From NCBI GenBank assembly GCA_019113165.1, contig DXHV01000036.1, positions 1-33,524 on the forward strand: a DNA stretch of 33,524 bases, written 5' to 3'. Positions 25,634 to 33,196 of this stretch are shown here, piece after piece (within the stretch, counting starts at the first letter, position 1; each line of letters begins with the position of its first letter). The position numbers were made by a program, and so were the translations under genes. The notes under the pieces are model-generated. The model ran no database searches. It worked only from the letters and a program-made list of their open reading frames with translations, and had not been told where the DNA came from. This stretch comes from Candidatus Desulfovibrio intestinipullorum (lineage in GTDB: Bacteria > Desulfobacterota > Desulfovibrionia > Desulfovibrionales > Desulfovibrionaceae).

Positions 25634-27514
25634 TTAGCAGATGATGGAGACACCGGTCTGGTAGATGGCGTCTTCGACCAGCACCTTGATGGCATAGGTG
25701 CCGCTCAGGCCTTCCTTGCTGATATTGAACTTGATGACGCGGTCATCGTCTTCCAGGTAGGCGCCGGAGCACATGGCCAGATGGTTGGTCGCAGCGGTAT
25801 TCACGTAGTAGGCGCGGGTTTCCTTTTCGCCCTGCAAAAGCACCATGGCCAGGGAGCCTCTGGCAAAGCGGCCGTGGAAGACAATGCGGTCCACGTCTTC
25901 CTCGATGTTCACCTGATGCCAGCTGTTGATGACCTCGGACGACTCGGGCAGTTCGGGAATGGTGTCGAAGGTGGGGGTCACATCGAGATGGCCCAGCAGC
26001 CTGCCTTCGCCCAGGGCGGCGTTTTCGCCGTCATGGTAGGCGGAGAGCTTGGTGCCACGGTAGAAGTTGCCTTCCACTTCCATGTAGTACATGACCACGC
26101 CGTCCTTCTGTTCCACGGTCTTGGAGCAGATGTCCGTACCGGGTTCCTTCCTGGGGTTGATGAAGGCGGGCAGCACGTCGGAGGCATAGCCATCCTTCCA
26201 GCCGATGCCGCCGGAGTGGATGAGGTAATGGCCTTCGGCATAGTATTCCACGTTGCAGATGTAGGGAGAGAAGAAGGCCTCGCCCAGTTCCTTGCCGTAC
26301 TGCCACAGCTGCTCGATTTCCATCTTGTCGGTATCGATGCGGTAGCGCACGCCGCGGGAGAAGTTGTCGCGGTTGCGGATGTAGCGTTCCTTCACCTTGG
26401 AACGATACTGGCCGTTGTCAAAGCACATGATGCTGCCGTCCGGGCAGACCACGCAGGCATGCTGTTCGTACTGCCAGTCGAACTTGGAGAGATCGCCCAC
26501 GGGCTTGAAGAAATATTTCTGCATATCGGCGGGCCAGGTCTCAGGATCGCCAATAATCCAGTTCAATTTACTTGTTTTGTAATCAAAATTTACGACAGCA
26601 TCCTGATGACGGCCGGAAATTGTAATGCTGTTTGTCTTTTTATCGTACCATAATGCATTGTTATGGAACCAGTCGTGGGCATCCTGCGAGCCGGATCCGG
26701 CCACATTCTGGGGAAGAAAGTCCTTGAAGTCCCAGGTGCGCAGGATTTCGCCGCTCTCGCGATCCACCAGGGCAATCATGTCTTCCACGGTGTCGGTGTG
26801 GAAGTCCTGGGTCAGGGAGAGGATCTGGCCGTCGGGCATCTCGAAGTGGTCATGATGGTAGTTGCCCGGCAGGCGGATTTCCTTGTAGATCTTGCCGAGC
26901 AGGTTCATCTCGTAGAGGCCGGTGCAGTTGTAGGGCATGTGGCAGAAACGGGAGGAACCGGTCACGATGTTGCCATTCTTGTAGCGCTTGATGGCGAACA
27001 TGGTGTTCTCGGTAAGCAGCCAGCGGATGTCGCCGGCATAGTCGTAGGCCGTGGGCAGGTTCTTGCCGGCAGGAGTCAGGAACATGAAGTCCGTGCCAAA
27101 GTACTGGATGGAGGTGCTGATATTGCGGCAGCGGCACACGTCCTCGGGCAGGGGCTGGGACTGGATGGCAAAGGTCTTGCTGGCGCCGCTGGACAGGGCC
27201 ACGGTAACCCTGGTCTCCACGCCCTCGTAGAGGCCCACCACGGGCAGCACATGGCTTGTGCCCTCGGCAAAGGTGTGGATGATGTCCTCGCGGGCATTGC
27301 GCTTGCCATGGATGGTCAGCGTGGGCACGCAGGGCTCGGCGGTCTTGAAGAGGATCATGGCGCACAGGGGGTTGATGAGATAGGGGTTCACCACCACCTG
27401 GGCGTTGTCGAGATCCGGCCGGGCGGCCTCGAAGGCGTCGAGCATCTCCTTTTCGGCGCGGTTCTGGCGGTCGATGAGATGGTCATTGTAGGTATGGATG
27501 ACTTTGGAATCCAT
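25634..27514 (-). CDS. assT: Arylsulfate sulfotransferase AssT, apparently cytoplasmic
   Basis: AssT moves sulfate from an aryl sulfate to a phenol acceptor through a sulfo-histidine, without PAPS. The 626-residue protein has the N-terminal ASST domain and a six-bladed propeller. The active-site residues are visible: His284 (DWFHNN) and Arg302 (SGRHQD) are 18 residues apart, exactly as His356 and Arg374 in E. coli AssT; the catalytic His is His352 (EQHACVVC, equivalent to His436); the HHDH group at 220-223 matches His252. There is no signal peptide: the N-terminus MDSKVIHTYNDHL is polar, while E. coli AssT is periplasmic. It has 13 cysteines. The ATG at 27514 follows GGAGAC; the frame extends to 27571 without a better start. 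About 120 bases at 26551-26670 are only about 35% GC and use different codons from the rest. Neighbours are trx and trxB. Confidence 0.95.
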   Translation of the reverse strand: MDSKVIHTYNDHLIDRQNRAEKEMLDAFEAARPDLDNAQVVVNPYLINPLCAMILFKTAEPCVPTLTIHGKRNAREDIIHTFAEGTSHVLPVVGLYEGVETRVTVALSSGASKTFAIQSQPLPEDVCRCRNISTSIQYFGTDFMFLTPAGKNLPTAYDYAGDIRWLLTENTMFAIKRYKNGNIVTGSSRFCHMPYNCTGLYEMNLLGKIYKEIRLPGNYHHDHFEMPDGQILSLTQDFHTDTVEDMIALVDRESGEILRTWDFKDFLPQNVAGSGSQDAHDWFHNNALWYDKKTNSITISGRHQDAVVNFDYKTSKLNWIIGDPETWPADMQKYFFKPVGDLSKFDWQYEQHACVVCPDGSIMCFDNGQYRSKVKERYIRNRDNFSRGVRYRIDTDKMEIEQLWQYGKELGEAFFSPYICNVEYYAEGHYLIHSGGIGWKDGYASDVLPAFINPRKEPGTDICSKTVEQKDGVVMYYMEVEGNFYRGTKLSAYHDGENAALGEGRLLGHLDVTPTFDTIPELPESSEVINSWHQVNIEEDVDRIVFHGRFARGSLAMVLLQGEKETRAYYVNTAATNHLAMCSGAYLEDDDRVIKFNISKEGLSGTYAIKVLVEDAIYQTGVSIIC

Positions 27515-27594
27515 GGCTGTCTCCTTGGAAGCCCGGCGCTGCGGGCACGGGTCTTGTGAGCGTGAGAACAAACAGTCAAAAAACGTATGAAATT

Positions 27595-27642
27595 TTTCCG
27601 GGAAGGATCTTTTCCGGGAAAGATCTTCTTCGGGAAGGACAG
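27595..27642. repeat. Three tandem 16-base repeats upstream of assT
   Basis: TTTCCGGGAAGGATCT (27595-27610) is followed by TTTCCGGGAAAGATCT (27611-27626) and a degenerate third copy at 27627-27642. Each contains a TTCCGGGAA-like palindrome, repeating every 16 bases. They lie 80-130 bases upstream of the assT start, in the spacer after trx, and could be a regulator-binding cluster or an RNA structure. Further CCCCGGGA repeats continue to 27690. Confidence 0.75.
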
Positions 27643-27694
27643 TCCTGCCCCGGGAGCACGTCCCCGGAACACGCTGCCCCGGGAACGTCCGGGA

Positions 27695-28003
27695 CTAGAG
27701 GATCTTCTCGACTTCCTTGAGGATGACGGGCTTCTGCTTGAGGCCTTCGAGACGGGAGACTTCCTCGCCGTCACGCATGAAGAGCAGCGTCGGGAAGCCC
27801 TTCACGTTGCAGCGGTTCTTCAGTTCCTCGTTGGCATTGAAGTCTATCTGCCAGATGGGCAGGTCGGGCATGGCCTTGGCCACGTCCTTGAGCACAAAGG
27901 CCAGCATTTTGCAGGGGCCGCAGGTCTTGGAGTAGAACTCCACCAGCATGGGGCCCTTCTTGTCGAGGCTGTCGTAGGCAGGGGTATCGATTTCCTGAAT
28001 CAT
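27695..28003 (-). CDS. trx: Thioredoxin
   Basis: The 102-residue protein is a classical small thioredoxin, reducing protein disulfides in the cytoplasm. The active site reads SKTCGPCKML (about 26-35), with the cis-proline in KGFPTLLF (about 68-75). No signal peptide is present. The ATG at 28003 follows AAGGA at a spacing of about 10. It lies 112 bases downstream of trxB and 180 bases upstream of assT on the same strand, so trxB, trx and assT may be co-expressed. Confidence 0.95.
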   Translation of the reverse strand: MIQEIDTPAYDSLDKKGPMLVEFYSKTCGPCKMLAFVLKDVAKAMPDLPIWQIDFNANEELKNRCNVKGFPTLLFMRDGEEVSRLEGLKQKPVILKEVEKIL

Positions 28004-28115
28004 GATGCGTCTATCCTTGAGAAAGGACCTGGTCCCTGGACTGTTCCCTGAAGGAACCCGGTCCCTGGTTTGTGGTGTTGCGGGCAAAAGGAGCGGGAGC
28101 GCGAGGTCCTGGGAC

Positions 28116-29033
28116 CTAGCGCAAATGTTCCACGTAGGAGGCCGCGTTGTGGGCGGCAATGGCGCCGTCGCCGCAGGCCGTGGCCACCTGGCGCAGTTCC
28201 TTGTTGGTAATGTCGCCTGCGGCATAGATGCCGGGCACCCTGGTGGCCATGCGGCCATCCACCTCTATGCAGCCCATGCGGTTCAGGATGCCCAGGTCCT
28301 TGCAGAAGGAGGCCGTGGGCTCCAGGCCGATGTACTCGAACACTCCGTCGCAGCGCACGGTACGCTCCACGCCGTCTTCCTTCGTGGACTTGAAGCGCAC
28401 GCCCTCAAGGCTCTCGCCGCCCAGGAATTCCAGCACGTCCTGGTAGGGATAGATGGTCACGTTGGGCAGGGCGCGCAGCTTGTCGCAGACCTTGGGATCG
28501 GCGGTGAGATCGAACATGGTCACTATGGTGAGGCTCTTCACGATGCCGGCCAGGTAGATGGACTCTTCCACGGCCGAATTGCCGCCGCCAATGACCACCA
28601 CGTCCCTGCCCTTGTACTGGGCGCCGTCGCAGATGGCGCACCAGCTGATGCCGGCGCCGGCAAAGTTGTCCTCTCCGGGAATATTGAGCCTGCGCGGACG
28701 GGTTCCTGTGGCCACAATCACGGCCCTGGTCTCGATGCGGGTGTCGTCTTCCTCGCAGACCACGACCTTGCGGGTGCCGTGATCCTCTATGGCGGTCACT
28801 GTCCTGTAGTCGAATTCGGCACCAGCCTCCTGGGACTGCTCGAACATCTTGATGGCCAGCTCGGCGCCGTTGATGACACCCACGCCAAGGTAGTTGGCAA
28901 TTTCATTGGTGTTGATGATCTGTCCGCCCGGAGCAAGCTTGTCCAGAAGCAGGGTTTTCATGTTAGCCCGCACGGCATAGACGGAGGCCGTGAGGCCTGC
29001 CGGACCTGCGCCAACAATAACAATATCGTACAT
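28116..29033 (-). CDS. trxB: Thioredoxin reductase, atypical cofactor-binding motif
   Basis: This 305-residue flavoprotein reduces thioredoxin. The FAD motif GAGPAGL is at 8-14, the redox pair C132-x2-C135 is in WCAICDGA, the second dinucleotide motif GGGNSAVEE is at 149-157, and the FAD-contacting GIYAAGDI is near the C-terminus. The NADPH-specific HRRxxxR motif, which follows the second dinucleotide motif in the classical enzyme, is replaced by VTMFDLT (171-177), with none of the three arginines. NADPH use is therefore doubtful; NADH or another donor is likely (inference). The ATG at 29033 follows TGAGGG. It is paired with the thioredoxin gene downstream. Confidence 0.93.
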   Translation of the reverse strand: MYDIVIVGAGPAGLTASVYAVRANMKTLLLDKLAPGGQIINTNEIANYLGVGVINGAELAIKMFEQSQEAGAEFDYRTVTAIEDHGTRKVVVCEEDDTRIETRAVIVATGTRPRRLNIPGEDNFAGAGISWCAICDGAQYKGRDVVVIGGGNSAVEESIYLAGIVKSLTIVTMFDLTADPKVCDKLRALPNVTIYPYQDVLEFLGGESLEGVRFKSTKEDGVERTVRCDGVFEYIGLEPTASFCKDLGILNRMGCIEVDGRMATRVPGIYAAGDITNKELRQVATACGDGAIAAHNAASYVEHLR

Positions 29034-29149
29034 GACGTGCCCTCACAAAAAGGCTGGGAAAGGGAAAGCGGGGCGCCCCGTCCGCGGAAGGGGCATGGGG
29101 CGTCCGGATGCAGTGCATCTGTCAGAAGGGAAGAAGCGGGAAGCGTGTG

Positions 29150-30706
29150 CTAGAAGATGAGGAAGGCCAGGGGCATGCCCACGCAGACCACCACGCCGTA
29201 GACCACGGCCGAAGCAATGACGGCGTGCTTGATCATGACGCCTGTGCTGGCCCATCTGGTCTGGCCGAAGAGCAGTGCCGCAAAGGGCGAGGCGGCCGGC
29301 GTGCAGGCCGCAATGAGCACGGCGTAGATGAAACAGGCCATGATGGGGCCGGAGGAGTAGCCAAAGGCATTGGAGACGGCCAGCAGCACCGGCGTCAGCA
29401 TGAGGCCGAGCACCACGGAGTTGCAGAAGTTGGTGAGCACGATGCCAAGGCCGGCTACGGCAACAGTGAGCATGGTGTAGTCCATGCCGGTCAGGAGATC
29501 GCGCAGCGTGTATTCCATGACCAGGGCCACATTGGTGCCCTTGCCGGTCATGATGCCGCCAAGCAGCATGGCCACGGCAATGAGCAGGAAGACGCGCAGC
29601 GGGAAGTGGGCATTGGACAGGGTGATGTCTATGGCGGGCTTGCCCTTGATGAAGATGACCGAGATGGCCAGGACGGCCATCAGGGAGCCTGTCATGTTGT
29701 TCTTCTGCAGGAAGGCGCCCACGGCATTGTCCGTGCCGATGATGGAGGGCAGGAGCAGCCACAGGGCGTAGCCCAGGAAGGTGAAGAGCACCACCTTCTG
29801 GGACGGGCTCATGGGCGGCAGGGGCTCCCTGCGCAGCATGTCGGTGTTGATGTTCTTCAGGGGCGAGACATCAACCCTGAACACGAAGCGCATGAGCAGA
29901 AGCAGGATGGCTATGCTGGTCAGGGAGACCACCTGCGCAAAGGAAAAGTAGGCCAGCAGGTCCAGGGGCTCGGCGTTCAGGCCCGTGGAGGTGGCGGCTA
30001 TGCTCTGCAGGTTGGAGACCAGGTAGAAGGCGCCGCCCTTGAAGGGATCCGAGGCAAAGGACAGCAGGGCCATGATGCAGATGTAGACCACCATGATGGA
30101 GACGTACTTGTCGCCCTTCCTGAAGCCGGCCTGCTCAAAGACCGCGTAGAGCACGGGCCACATGAGGAAGACCGCCGTGGTCTGGTCAAAGAAGGCCACT
30201 ATGTAGGTTGTCAGCAGCAGCGTGGCCGTGAAGACCCAGGGCCGGCCGTTCACGAATTCTCTTGTTGTCAGAAAGCGTGCAATCCAGGAGGCCAGGCCGG
30301 AATGGACAATGGCACTGGCGAAGATGCACAGGAAGAAGATCATGACAACCATGGGGTTGCCGAGAAACATGGACAATATCTTGGGCGCAGGGGCATAGTT
30401 GCTGAAGATGAGCGCAGCTATGCCGAGCAGGCTGGGCCAGATGGTGTCCACAAAGGTCCACAGGTACACCACGGCCAGGAAGGTCATGGTGATGATCATG
30501 CCCATTTCGGTGACCTGGAGGGTCACCTGGCCATCGACAACGGGCAGGCCCATGGCAATCAGCTTTTCGTTGGCAGGAACAACCTTGGAGATCTGGGGCA
30601 GGAAGTAGCCGGAGACCATGATGAGCAGGCCTATGACGATGTGCACCATCTTGGCAAAGTCCGGCTTGTGCGGAGCGTCGCTCTGCACGGGAGCGGATGT
30701 GGTCAT
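29150..30706 (-). CDS. IT-superfamily (SLC13/ArsB-like) membrane transporter
   Basis: The 518-residue protein has about 12 membrane helices and the two-half organisation of the ion transporter superfamily (SLC13, DASS, ArsB, NhaD). Paired re-entrant motifs are visible: FFDQTTAVFLMWPV (about 173-186) in the first half and LTNFCNSVVLGLMLTPV and CTPAASPFAALLFG in the second. The SNT motif of canonical DASS proteins is not exact, so the substrate may be a carboxylate, sulfate, sulfonate or organosulfate. It has a cytoplasmic N-terminus. A palindrome with FNR-like geometry lies 86 bases upstream of its start. It is followed after 116 bases by trxB. Confidence 0.85.
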   Translation of the reverse strand: MTTSAPVQSDAPHKPDFAKMVHIVIGLLIMVSGYFLPQISKVVPANEKLIAMGLPVVDGQVTLQVTEMGMIITMTFLAVVYLWTFVDTIWPSLLGIAALIFSNYAPAPKILSMFLGNPMVVMIFFLCIFASAIVHSGLASWIARFLTTREFVNGRPWVFTATLLLTTYIVAFFDQTTAVFLMWPVLYAVFEQAGFRKGDKYVSIMVVYICIMALLSFASDPFKGGAFYLVSNLQSIAATSTGLNAEPLDLLAYFSFAQVVSLTSIAILLLLMRFVFRVDVSPLKNINTDMLRREPLPPMSPSQKVVLFTFLGYALWLLLPSIIGTDNAVGAFLQKNNMTGSLMAVLAISVIFIKGKPAIDITLSNAHFPLRVFLLIAVAMLLGGIMTGKGTNVALVMEYTLRDLLTGMDYTMLTVAVAGLGIVLTNFCNSVVLGLMLTPVLLAVSNAFGYSSGPIMACFIYAVLIAACTPAASPFAALLFGQTRWASTGVMIKHAVIASAVVYGVVVCVGMPLAFLIF

Positions 30707-30791
30707 TGTCGAAACCCGATTGGTCTGATGCGGTAACTGGCGAGCACGACATCATTGGCTGCACTCTATCCCAGCCAGGGATCCTGCTAAA

Positions 30792-30805
30792 TAAGTCTGG
30801 ACTTA
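30792..30805. promoter_or_regulatory. FNR-type palindrome upstream of the transporter
   Basis: TAAGT-CTGG-ACTTA is a perfect inverted repeat with two 5-base arms and a 4-base spacer, the geometry of FNR/CRP-family sites such as TTGAT-N4-ATCAA. The next base pair inward (C..G) also pairs. On the minus strand a TAGAGT hexamer at 30768-30763 could be a -10 element, giving a start near 30756 and placing the palindrome centre at about -42, the class II position (inference). Two Crp/Fnr regulators are encoded immediately upstream, making them candidate binders. Confidence 0.55.
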
Positions 30806-30893
30806 GATTGCACTCTTTTTTTCACAAAGCCCGTTTTTTTGTTCCGAACTGTCCCTGACAGGCCCCCGGGACAGACCAGGACCTGGTCCTGCT

Positions 30894-31613
30894 TCAGTAG
30901 TCGAGCTCGCGCATGCCCATGGCAATGTCGCGCATTTGGCCCATGTTCGTGATGACGACCTGGCGGCCCTTGCGGGCGATGAGCCCCTCGTTCTTCAGTG
31001 CTGTGAAAATTTTCGCAACGGTCATGGCGTGCATGGACAGATGCGTGGCTATGTCCTGATAGGTGAGCGGCAGGTGGACAAGATAGGGCGTCGTTTTCGG
31101 CACAAACTGCAGAAGCAGGCGGCAGACGCGCTGGCTGGCCGGCAGCGTGCTCGAATTGGTGGCCAGGGAGAACATGTTGAGCAGGTTTTCGGTCAGGGCA
31201 CACAGCAGGATCTTGTTCAGAAGCAGATTGTTCTGCAGCTCCAGCAGGAAGCGGGCAGGCTCGATCACGACGCAGCGGCACTCGCTTCTGGTCTTGATGA
31301 CAAAGTTCCTGCGAATGATGAGCCGGCTTCTGGTAAGGTTGTGCATGGGCAGCATGGAGGAGAGGCTGGGAATGAAGTTGGCCAGCATGCCGGGCTCGAA
31401 GTAGATGAGCGTCACTTCCTCGCCCGACGGCTCCCTGCTGCTGAGGGTCATGCTGCCCTCGAGGAGCAGGTACACGCTGTTGCTGCGTATCTGAAAGCCC
31501 TTGGGCAGGCGTTCCTCCCGGCCAAGGCTGCGCAGGAGTTCGCTGCCCTGCTGCAGCAGATCCGCCTCGACCCAGTTCTTCTGGTCCCGGTTTCCCTGTA
31601 TCCCTGTGTGCAT
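30894..31613 (-). CDS. Crp/Fnr family transcriptional regulator (first)
   Basis: The 239-residue protein has an N-terminal cNMP-binding-like barrel (about 35-125, with VYLLLEGSMTLSSREPSGEEVTLIYFEPG), a dimerisation helix (about 127-150) and a C-terminal winged helix-turn-helix (about 180-225, LTYQDIATHLSMHAMTVAKIFTALKNEGLI). The recognition helix is unusual (AMTVAKIF where the family has R-E-T-V-S-R), which may give a site different from the classical ones. No FNR-like cysteine cluster is seen. The ATG at 31613 follows GGGGAG. It lies 187 bases upstream of the transporter, with the FNR-type palindrome between them, and 47 bases after the second regulator. Confidence 0.9.
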   Translation of the reverse strand: MHTGIQGNRDQKNWVEADLLQQGSELLRSLGREERLPKGFQIRSNSVYLLLEGSMTLSSREPSGEEVTLIYFEPGMLANFIPSLSSMLPMHNLTRSRLIIRRNFVIKTRSECRCVVIEPARFLLELQNNLLLNKILLCALTENLLNMFSLATNSSTLPASQRVCRLLLQFVPKTTPYLVHLPLTYQDIATHLSMHAMTVAKIFTALKNEGLIARKGRQVVITNMGQMRDIAMGMRELDY

Positions 31614-31660
31614 GTCAGTCTCCCCTGCTGTCCTGTCGCATGACGCTGTTCCCCAGACTG

Positions 31661-32374
31661 TCAGTCGCGCTCCACTTCCTTCAGAAAGGCCTCGGGGTCG
31701 AGAATGCGGACAATCTTCCTCCTGCGGCAGTAGTCCAGCAGGCCCTGTTCCCTGGCTGCGTCCAGCGTCCTGTACAGGGACACCCTGTGCACGGCGAGGT
31801 AGCTTGCCAAGTCCTGAAAGTTCGAGTCCAGGCGGATGACACCGGCCTCGTCCGCATTCCTGAGTCTGGTGGCCAGGTAGCCGAAGACGCACTCTCTGGT
31901 GGACGCTATCTGCTCGTTGGTCATCTTGCAGGCCAGGAGGGAGACCTTGAGGCCCAGGCTGCGGCAGAGATTGAGAAAGAGGTCCGGATTGGCCCTGCCC
32001 GCGGCCACGGCCGTCTCGAAGGGTATGCGGCCCACCAGGCTGTCATGGGTGCAGTAGTGCGCAAAGACAGGGGTAAGGGACGTTTCCCTGGCCCTGGCGG
32101 AGAGGCCGGCAATGCTCGGCGGCAGGGGCGCCGTGCTCGAACTCACTTCCGTGAACACCGGCGTTTCGTTGAAGATGGTATTGTCGCGCAGATACCAGAG
32201 GATTTTTTCCGTGCCATCCCTGGTCATGGCGGTCAGGCGCACGCAACCCTTGAGAAGGTAGTTGAGATCCGTGCCTGTCGGTACCATTGATCCCTTCTTG
32301 TAGACACGGGTCTCCCCTGCTGCCAGGGTTCTCCAGCAGGTATTCACATCGTGGATTTCAGTGTAGGAGAGCAT
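31661..32374 (-). CDS. Crp/Fnr family transcriptional regulator (second)
   Basis: The 237-residue protein has the same layout as its neighbour but is clearly a different member: sensor barrel about 20-125 (VPTGTDLNYLLKGCVRLTAMTRDGTEKILWYL) and a winged helix-turn-helix about 180-230 (NFQDLASYLAVHRVSLYRTLDAAREQGLL). The segment FTEVSSSTAPLPPSIAGLSARARETSL (74-100) is a family-atypical loop. The ATG at 32374 follows AGGGAGG at a spacing of 4. The spacer to the first regulator is 47 bases, suggesting one transcript. The signal sensed is unknown. Confidence 0.9.
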   Translation of the reverse strand: MLSYTEIHDVNTCWRTLAAGETRVYKKGSMVPTGTDLNYLLKGCVRLTAMTRDGTEKILWYLRDNTIFNETPVFTEVSSSTAPLPPSIAGLSARARETSLTPVFAHYCTHDSLVGRIPFETAVAAGRANPDLFLNLCRSLGLKVSLLACKMTNEQIASTRECVFGYLATRLRNADEAGVIRLDSNFQDLASYLAVHRVSLYRTLDAAREQGLLDYCRRRKIVRILDPEAFLKEVERD

Positions 32375-32464
32375 GGTCCCTCCCTGGGAAAGCGGGGCAC
32401 GGGCAGAACCCTTTTCCCCTGACAACGTCAAAGAGCGAGAGCGGATGGCCTTGTACCGGGACTG

Positions 32465-33196
32465 TCAGACCAAGGCCCGGCCAAGGCACAGGATGCCGGC
32501 CAGCAGGATGACGGCCTGGACAACCCTGCGAAAGGTCTGTGTGTTGATCCTCCTGATGACCGGCATGGCCAAAAGCAGGCCAAGCACGGCAAAGGGGGCG
32601 CAGTACTGCACATAGTGGACAATTTCTGCCGTGTAGAGCCCGGCAGAGGCCTGCACGGTACAGGTGACCACAATGCGCAGGAAGAAGTAGATGCTGGTGG
32701 TGCCGAGGAAGACCAGGGGCTGCCAGCCTGCCTGCAGGCCGTAGAGGGCAACGACAGGACCGTCTATGTTCACGCAGGTGCCCAGCATGCCGCCCGCCAC
32801 GCCCACAAGAAAGCTTGCCATGGTACCTTCCTGCAGGAAGCGGAGATTTCTGAAGAGGGCCATGCCCGCCGTGCAGAAGATGAGCATGATGCCCACGAAG
32901 ACTTCCAGGATGGTGGCCGGGGCATACTGCAGGATCTGGAGCCCTGCCAGGGAGCCCGGTATGGTGCCCGCAAACATGAGCAGGGCCGTTGTCCAGCGGC
33001 AGTAGCGGCCATAGCGGAAGCACATGACCAGACCGGCAGCAAGGCCCGTGAGACAGGAGACGAGCACCACGGTCTGCACGGGCAGGACCGTAATCTGAAT
33101 GGCCGTGGCAATGGCGGCCGCACCTATGCCGCACAGACCGGTCACAAAGGACGCCACAAACCAGGCAAGGACAGAGACAATCAGGGGCAGATCCAT
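32465..33196 (-). CDS. TauE/SafE family permease
   Basis: The 243-residue protein has about eight hydrophobic helices, with paired glycine-rich starts VASFVTGLCGIGAAAIATAIQI (about 13-34) and a second half beginning FLVGVAGGMLGTCVNIDGPVVALYGL, as in TauE/SafE exporters of sulfite and sulfoacetate. The repeated GGMLG/DGP feature supports the family. The ATG at 33196 was chosen as the first methionine before helix 1; a longer frame adds an unconserved Ala/Pro stretch. It is 90 bases upstream of the second regulator and may be the first gene of the cluster. Confidence 0.9.
   Translation of the reverse strand: MDLPLIVSVLAWFVASFVTGLCGIGAAAIATAIQITVLPVQTVVLVSCLTGLAAGLVMCFRYGRYCRWTTALLMFAGTIPGSLAGLQILQYAPATILEVFVGIMLIFCTAGMALFRNLRFLQEGTMASFLVGVAGGMLGTCVNIDGPVVALYGLQAGWQPLVFLGTTSIYFFLRIVVTCTVQASAGLYTAEIVHYVQYCAPFAVLGLLLAMPVIRRINTQTFRRVVQAVILLAGILCLGRALV

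Follow-up and report, generated by a model that had tools for sequence, protein, structure and literature searches.

A conserved transporter, thioredoxin and arylsulfate sulfotransferase module of Desulfovibrio and its relatives, proposed to release sulfite from aryl sulfates

The window analysed here, 33,524 bases of DNA from Candidatus Desulfovibrio intestinipullorum, is one entire contig of a 2.77-Mb draft genome. At positions 25634-33196 it carries seven consecutive genes, all on the minus strand, whose arrangement and named identities in an initial annotation agree with the open reading frame (ORF) list and a Pfam scan (Table 1). Within this set, the genes for a CitMHS-type transporter, a thioredoxin reductase (TrxB), a thioredoxin (TrxA) and an arylsulfate sulfotransferase (AssT) are the conserved core of a module. 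We propose that this core carries out a reductive desulfation, in which AssT and its dedicated thioredoxin pair would convert an aryl sulfate to phenol and sulfite, and we put the probability of this reading at roughly 0.6. The gene content, the linkage, the conserved catalytic residues, the cytoplasmic form of AssT and the co-occurrence with sulfite reductases are observed directly.

We examined conservation of the module in the loci of the best 80 of 143 AssT relatives, a set biased towards the window's own AssT; the named records among the window's relatives are Desulfovibrio and Mailhella. Adjacency was counted with tblastn, as ORF calls are unreliable in low-GC and some high-GC loci, and phylum groups were set manually from record titles. 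At least one of trxA and trxB lies on the same strand as assT and within 2.7 kb of it in 62 of the 80 loci, and both genes do so in 57. By phylum name, this linkage is found in 30 of 34 loci from Desulfobacterota, 30 of 43 from Bacillota and two of the remaining three. A transporter gene on the same strand lies within 4.5 kb of assT in 69 loci, its kind (CitMHS, DASS or MFS) varying by lineage. A Crp-type gene is found within 6 kb in 40 loci, and in one (L030) a homologue of crp1 precedes the module. Gene order also differs between lineages, with both trxBA-assT and assT-trxBA present.

Within the genus, 13 of 79 genomes contain a strong AssT match. Among the 12 other than the window's own, seven have the order trxB-trxA-assT (one with a broken assT), two have assT-trxB-trxA, and in the remaining three the locus is at a contig end, partial or broken. 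The assT gene of genome G079 (L036:1463-3342) is broken by a frame change, and G067 holds pieces only. Distances among AssT proteins correlate with those among their TrxB proteins (rho 0.45 over 59 loci; rho 0.56 over the 53 that remain when one mis-called ORF and the loci of the Desulfosporosinus type are omitted), a pattern to be expected if the genes are inherited as one unit.

The initial annotation had offered the linkage of these genes as an inference and had set gene order in relatives in advance as the point on which it should be judged. That order is conserved, and the core of the interpretation, a cytoplasmic AssT served by a reducing thioredoxin pair and an importer, stands with it. 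Overall, support from relatives is strong for citT-trxB-trxA-assT, often includes a Crp regulator, and hardly extends to tauE. Since tblastn found no match to the window's TauE in the relatives' loci searched (L030-L197), we dropped tauE as a core gene, and export by TauE is not a conserved trait of the module; one of these loci (L099) has its own TauE adjoining assT. The putative label of sulfite/sulfonate exporter comes from the PF01925 match, and sulfite is more likely to go to the cell's own sulfite reductase than to be exported by TauE. In several Desulfovibrio loci (L122:2417-4039, L106) the module is adjoined by a porin-like, secreted-looking protein of ~530-540 residues with no Pfam match.

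The linked thioredoxin pair is distinct from canonical systems. The window's TrxB scores 309.3 bits with TIGR01292, under the cut-off of 343.45 for canonical NADPH-dependent TrxB, and has TMFDLTADP at the position of the HRRxxxR motif; this position reads LTADP or LTAAP in 53 of 59 linked TrxBs. The electron donor of TrxB is probably not NADPH. A branch with support 1.000 separates the linked TrxBs from the remaining TrxBs of their genomes; the exceptions are one mis-called ORF and five proteins of Desulfosporosinus. TrxA is likewise under its TIGR01068 cut-off (68.3 vs 96.8 bits), is recognised by PF00085, and carries TCGPC in place of WCGPC, as do 50 of 54 trxA-type ORFs in the 80 loci. The module's TrxB clade occurs in 10 of the 79 genus genomes: 10 of the 13 with strong AssT and none of the 66 without (Fisher p 2e-10, a value that ignores genome relatedness). 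In the Desulfosporosinus loci, AssT is paired with an unrelated thioredoxin-like protein and another type of TrxB; a thioredoxin pair therefore seems to have been recruited by AssT more than once. Moreover, no trxA or trxB was found around 14 loci for the sulfite reductase AsrABC that lack a nearby assT, which indicates that the pair accompanies AssT and not Asr.

The same AssT recurs together with sulfite reductases. In 11 of the 80 loci, all from Hungatella, Enterocloster, Lachnoclostridium, other Lachnospiraceae or Clostridium, asrC is at most 5 kb from assT and the operon includes asrA and asrB as well; these asrABC genes are not present in the window. In Hungatella hathewayi (L090), AsrA, AsrB and AsrC are over cut-off (TIGR02910, TIGR02911 and TIGR02912) beside assT, and siroheme genes come after them. 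In 250 genomes of Hungatella's family (apparently one and the same draw for both proteins), AsrC was over cut-off in 43 and AssT exceeded 800 bits in eight, four of which were known before sampling. A low-scoring AsrC class (350-378 bits) was present in seven of these eight against three of the 242 others (p 9e-11), and any AsrC in seven against 36 (p 2e-5), relatedness being ignored in both tests; asrC is near assT in all seven of the strong-AssT genomes with the low class. Five genomes with AssT at 350-437 bits were scored as negative, among them G279 and G321, which have a high-scoring AsrC. The two AsrC score classes are distinct, at about 350-378 and 457-574 bits, and the low class accompanies AssT; the AsrC-class genomes are G119, G120, G113, G137, G159, G177, G202, G291, G292 and G356.

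A wider survey covered 60 genomes with this AssT, comprising 50 of the 80 loci and 10 genus genomes. DsrA was over cut-off in 38, AsrC in 19 and both in one, so that 56 of the 60 have one or the other. For sulfate activation and reduction we surveyed AprA in 32 genomes, and Sat, CysD and adenosine 5'-phosphosulfate (APS) reductase (TIGR02055) in 27. AprA exceeded its cut-off in 8 of 32 genomes; among the 27, Sat did so in three, CysD in one and APS reductase in none, although four had weak sub-cut-off matches to APS reductase. All four proteins were under cut-off in 23 of the 27 genomes, which have DsrA or AsrC, although such absences are weak evidence in draft genomes and the completeness of the locus-derived genomes is not stated. 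The 23 include six Dsr-bearing Bacillota as well as H. hathewayi (G119), whose chromosome is complete. The other four are G000 and G018 (Sat, AprA), G129 (Sat, AprA and both Dsr and Asr) and G131, which has CysD over cut-off, AprA-like matches under it, and an AssT not linked to trx. Cells lacking sulfate activation in this way would therefore need sulfite from a source other than sulfate, sulfonates being another possible one. In a Dsr-bearing Clostridia genome in which AprA and Sat were not found, L099:277-7789 encodes Hdr-like proteins, AsrA/AsrB-like proteins and TauE beside assT.

These data bear on what AssT makes. By itself the enzyme just transfers a sulfo group, and a sulfite reductase encoded in one operon with it requires S(IV); the missing reductant would be the linked dithiol pair. 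Given the asrC genes close to assT, the Dsr or Asr of the host genomes and the 23 genomes without sulfate activation, the product is most likely sulfite, formed by reduction, and not a sulfated acceptor. Moreover, the presence of the same gene set beside sulfite-reducing enzymes in some relatives suggests that these bacteria use the module to supply their respiration with sulfite derived from sulfated phenols. Of the sequence of uptake, transfer and export first envisaged for an aryl sulfate, the importer and the cytoplasmic AssT are retained, and the sulfated-acceptor product is considered less likely on account of the asrC linkage and the host sulfite reductases.

We weighed two other routes. 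AssT could act as a sulfatase with water as acceptor, the sulfate then being activated and reduced and thioredoxin serving another step. The window genome, with Sat, AprA and DsrA, is able to reduce sulfate, but the 23 genomes that have DsrA or AsrC without the activating enzymes are not accommodated, and we consider this route improbable. Still less credible is the sulfation of adenosine monophosphate or a like nucleotide by AssT to give APS, followed by reduction to sulfite by thioredoxin and a reductase for APS or 3'-phosphoadenosine 5'-phosphosulfate (PAPS). Assimilatory APS/PAPS reductases usually draw their electrons from thioredoxin, and AprA is present in the window genome; against this stand the scarcity of AprA and the lack of above-threshold TIGR02055 matches in the surveyed genomes, as well as the absence of a CysH-type domain from the eight window proteins scanned.

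The AssT protein itself retains its catalytic histidine. Its two family matches far exceed the cut-off of 24.2 bits that applies to each, and its model has the beta-propeller fold of the uropathogenic E. coli (UPEC) enzyme (PDB 3elq). When the active-site residues listed in passages of PMC13426309 (His436, His252, His356, Asn358 and Arg374) are located by alignment, catalytic His352 corresponds to UPEC His436, and His221, His284, Asn286 and Arg302 are also in place; all five are conserved in 95-96 of 96 AssT rows. A crude hydropathy test over 12 residues detected no hydrophobic N-terminus in any of the 96 rows, of which 95 have a testable N-terminus, in agreement with the earlier remark that AssT has no signal peptide. 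Cys420, adjacent to the active site, is kept in 89 of 96 rows. Cys582, kept in 94, is carried by an extra C-terminal part, about residues 498-626; in the model this part is outside the range aligned to 3elq, and on this basis we make no claim of a new fold. The window's AssT is ~50% identical to those of Desulfosporosinus and Hungatella.

Such an enzyme could be an ordinary cytoplasmic sulfotransferase acting between phenols or on sugars, with thioredoxin merely keeping its cysteines reduced. Passages of PMC13426309 and PMC11468790 describe such transfer in vitro, with p-nitrophenyl sulfate, by family members from Desulfitobacterium, Desulfosporosinus and Hungatella, and the conserved Cys420 and Cys582 suit the idea. 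It leaves unaccounted for both the asrABC operons and the sulfite reductases of 56 genomes, and it needs no thioredoxin pair from a clade of its own, because additional, housekeeping TrxB copies are present in all eight genomes searched; we regard it as unlikely. Alternatively, the true substrate may be an S-sulfonate or another sulfo compound that follows the same AssT-thioredoxin route to sulfite. The natural donors of aryl sulfotransferases (ASTs) are not known according to passages of PMC13426309, and since transporters vary by lineage, substrates may vary too. Each of the donor-pocket residues, however, is conserved in 95 or more of the 96 rows, relatives use aryl sulfates, and alkyl sulfates were inactive in the single donor study cited in those passages, which leaves this alternative only a slim chance.

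The reductive desulfation that we favour could proceed as follows. The CitMHS-type transporter would import an aryl sulfate, and cytoplasmic AssT would bind its sulfo group on His352 with release of the phenol. The dedicated TrxA, in place of a second phenol, would accept the sulfo group on its CxxC motif (or relieve a sulfo-cysteine on AssT); the second TrxA cysteine would then expel sulfite, leaving a disulfide that TrxB would re-reduce, probably without NADPH. The sulfite would be respired by DsrAB in the window's host and by AsrABC in Lachnospiraceae. In net terms, an aryl sulfate and two electrons would yield phenol and sulfite, bypassing ATP sulfurylase and APS reductase. The window's host and other sulfate reducers would gain by saving ATP; Lachnospiraceae would gain access to sulfite in the first place. 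In this scheme we infer the substrate, the role of thioredoxin as acceptor, the sulfite product, the electron donor and each chemical step.

Several observations weigh against this scheme. Eighteen of the 80 loci have no adjacent trx gene; in four of these no more than 200 bases separate assT from a contig end, which is not so for the other 14. In eight other genomes of the crp-citT-assT type, asrABC is beside assT in one. Two of the 60 surveyed genomes have no DsrA, AsrC or fragment of them, and two more have DsrA fragments only. The window genome has Sat, AprA and DsrA, so the AssT route is not its only source of sulfite. The UPEC active-site residue Thr501 is replaced by Ile419 in the window's AssT, with Ile in 95 of 96 rows. 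Cys420 is Ser in six of 96 rows, two of them trx-linked; a sulfo-cysteine at this position is for that reason not general, and a cysteine relay through it, which we had considered, is weakened. Finally, passages of PMC13426309 report that purified members of the family need no thioredoxin to sulfate phenols, alcohols and sugars in vitro.

If the scheme is true, it adds a route to the sulfur cycle that bypasses sulfate activation, links phenol sulfates of host or dietary origin (conjugated drugs, for example) to hydrogen sulfide in the gut, and gives a role to the thioredoxin pair of these genomes. Were the chemistry confirmed, the pathway would be categorically new, and its proteins would be new variants of known families. 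We give even odds to a fuller version, a two-protein aryl sulfate reductase in which the sulfo-histidine of AssT passes its group to the dedicated thioredoxin, possibly docked at the extra C-terminal part with its conserved Cys582. Thioredoxin would then be the long-sought natural acceptor of cytoplasmic ASTs, sulfite respiration would be entered without ATP, and gut Desulfovibrio and Lachnospiraceae would form sulfide from sulfated phenols, drugs or hormones.

The seven genes are separated by spacers of 47-187 bases, from their coordinates. A pattern scan found no minus-strand terminator in the window; its five terminator-like sites are all on the plus strand, a number close to that in shuffled sequence. 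The 12-base palindrome GGGACCAGGTCC is repeated in two module spacers (28025-28036 and 30879-30890), and has three matches in the window with at most one mismatch, against 0.53 expected; three were reached in 2 of 100 shuffles. The upstream regions of citT share no consistent Crp/Fnr operator, with isolated good matches, for example in L121. The window ends with the contig, and the region upstream of tauE is therefore not visible.

A second, shorter AssT family is encoded in the same genome (L042:16651-18216, contig C52) and in L043, L044 and L046. In relatives its genes are grouped with those for a porin-like protein and a DASS transporter; a signal peptide is present in one copy and absent from the other. 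A glutaredoxin-like CxxC protein with no Pfam match lies beside this family at L043:12063-12884 and L045:4277-5149; it was set aside, two loci being too few to use.

Table 1. Genes of the module region, with positions in the window
Gene	Position	Strand	Description
assT	25634..27514	-	Cytoplasmic aryl sulfate sulfotransferase, 626 aa; PF05935 337 bits, PF17425 50 bits
trxA	27695..28003	-	Dedicated thioredoxin, TCGPC site; PF00085 77 bits; putative sulfo acceptor and reductant
trxB	28116..29033	-	Dedicated thioredoxin reductase without HRRxxxR NADPH motif; Pyr_redox_2 147 bits
citT-like IT-superfamily importer	29150..30706	-	CitMHS PF03600 45.7 bits; presumed organosulfate uptake
crp2, Crp/Fnr-family regulator	30894..31613	-	HTH_Crp_2 50 bits
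crp1, second Crp/Fnr-family regulator	31661..32374	-	HTH_Crp_2 39 bits; cNMP_binding slightly under cut-off; membership plausible
tauE/safE-type permease	32465..33196	-	TauE PF01925 89 bits; membership doubtful

The closest well-described counterpart, the periplasmic AssT of UPEC, differs from the window's AssT in several respects. The UPEC enzyme has a signal peptide and, by alignment, a C418-C424 disulfide loop before the catalytic histidine, both absent from the window's AssT, which has the extra C-terminal part and Ile for Thr501. The partners of UPEC AssT are the oxidising DsbL and DsbI, whereas those of the window's AssT are the reducing TrxA and TrxB; this contrast, already drawn in the initial annotation, holds, as the linked pair is TrxA/TrxB and not an oxidising Dsb pair. 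Unlike in the UPEC system, a sulfite reductase neighbours assT in some relatives of the module.

By organism set and ~50% identity, the window's AssT belongs to the Cluster II bacterial aryl sulfotransferases (Desulfitobacterium DhAST, Desulfosporosinus, Hungatella). Passages of PMC13426309 and PMC11468790 describe members that are active in vitro and treat them as sulfation tools; the word "thioredoxin" is absent from the main texts of both, and "sulfite" from that of PMC13426309. Those of PMC13426309, a 2026 review, state that natural AST substrates are unknown and that the Hungatella effluvii AST is active, and those of PMC11468790 report negligible activity, low biomass or low specific activity with phenol or catechol for the enzymes of Hungatella hathewayi, Niameybacter and D. 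acididurans. We take these weak activities as neutral for the reductive reading. Our searches of open-licence PubMed Central papers brought up none that joins AssT, thioredoxin and sulfite, or that describes such a pathway.

APS/PAPS reductases use a Cys-sulfo step; the module would carry out a similar one in which the activated donor is an aryl sulfate. By analogy, CysH, the thioredoxin-dependent PAPS/APS reductase, resembles the proposed chemistry in that a sulfo group is placed on a cysteine and sulfite is expelled by the thioredoxin dithiol; its fold and donor are unrelated to those of AssT, and the module has no CysH-type domain. DvTR3/DvTrx3 of Desulfovibrio vulgaris, likened to the module pair by description and not by clade, is a second, non-canonical thioredoxin system of a Desulfovibrio, and DvTR3 prefers NADH (passages of PMC5627308). 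The glycine reductase operon likewise equips a catabolic enzyme with its own atypical TrxA and TrxB, and although enzyme and substrate differ, its dedicated TrxA3/TrxB3 (passages of PMC10880999) are a precedent for the pair linked to AssT.

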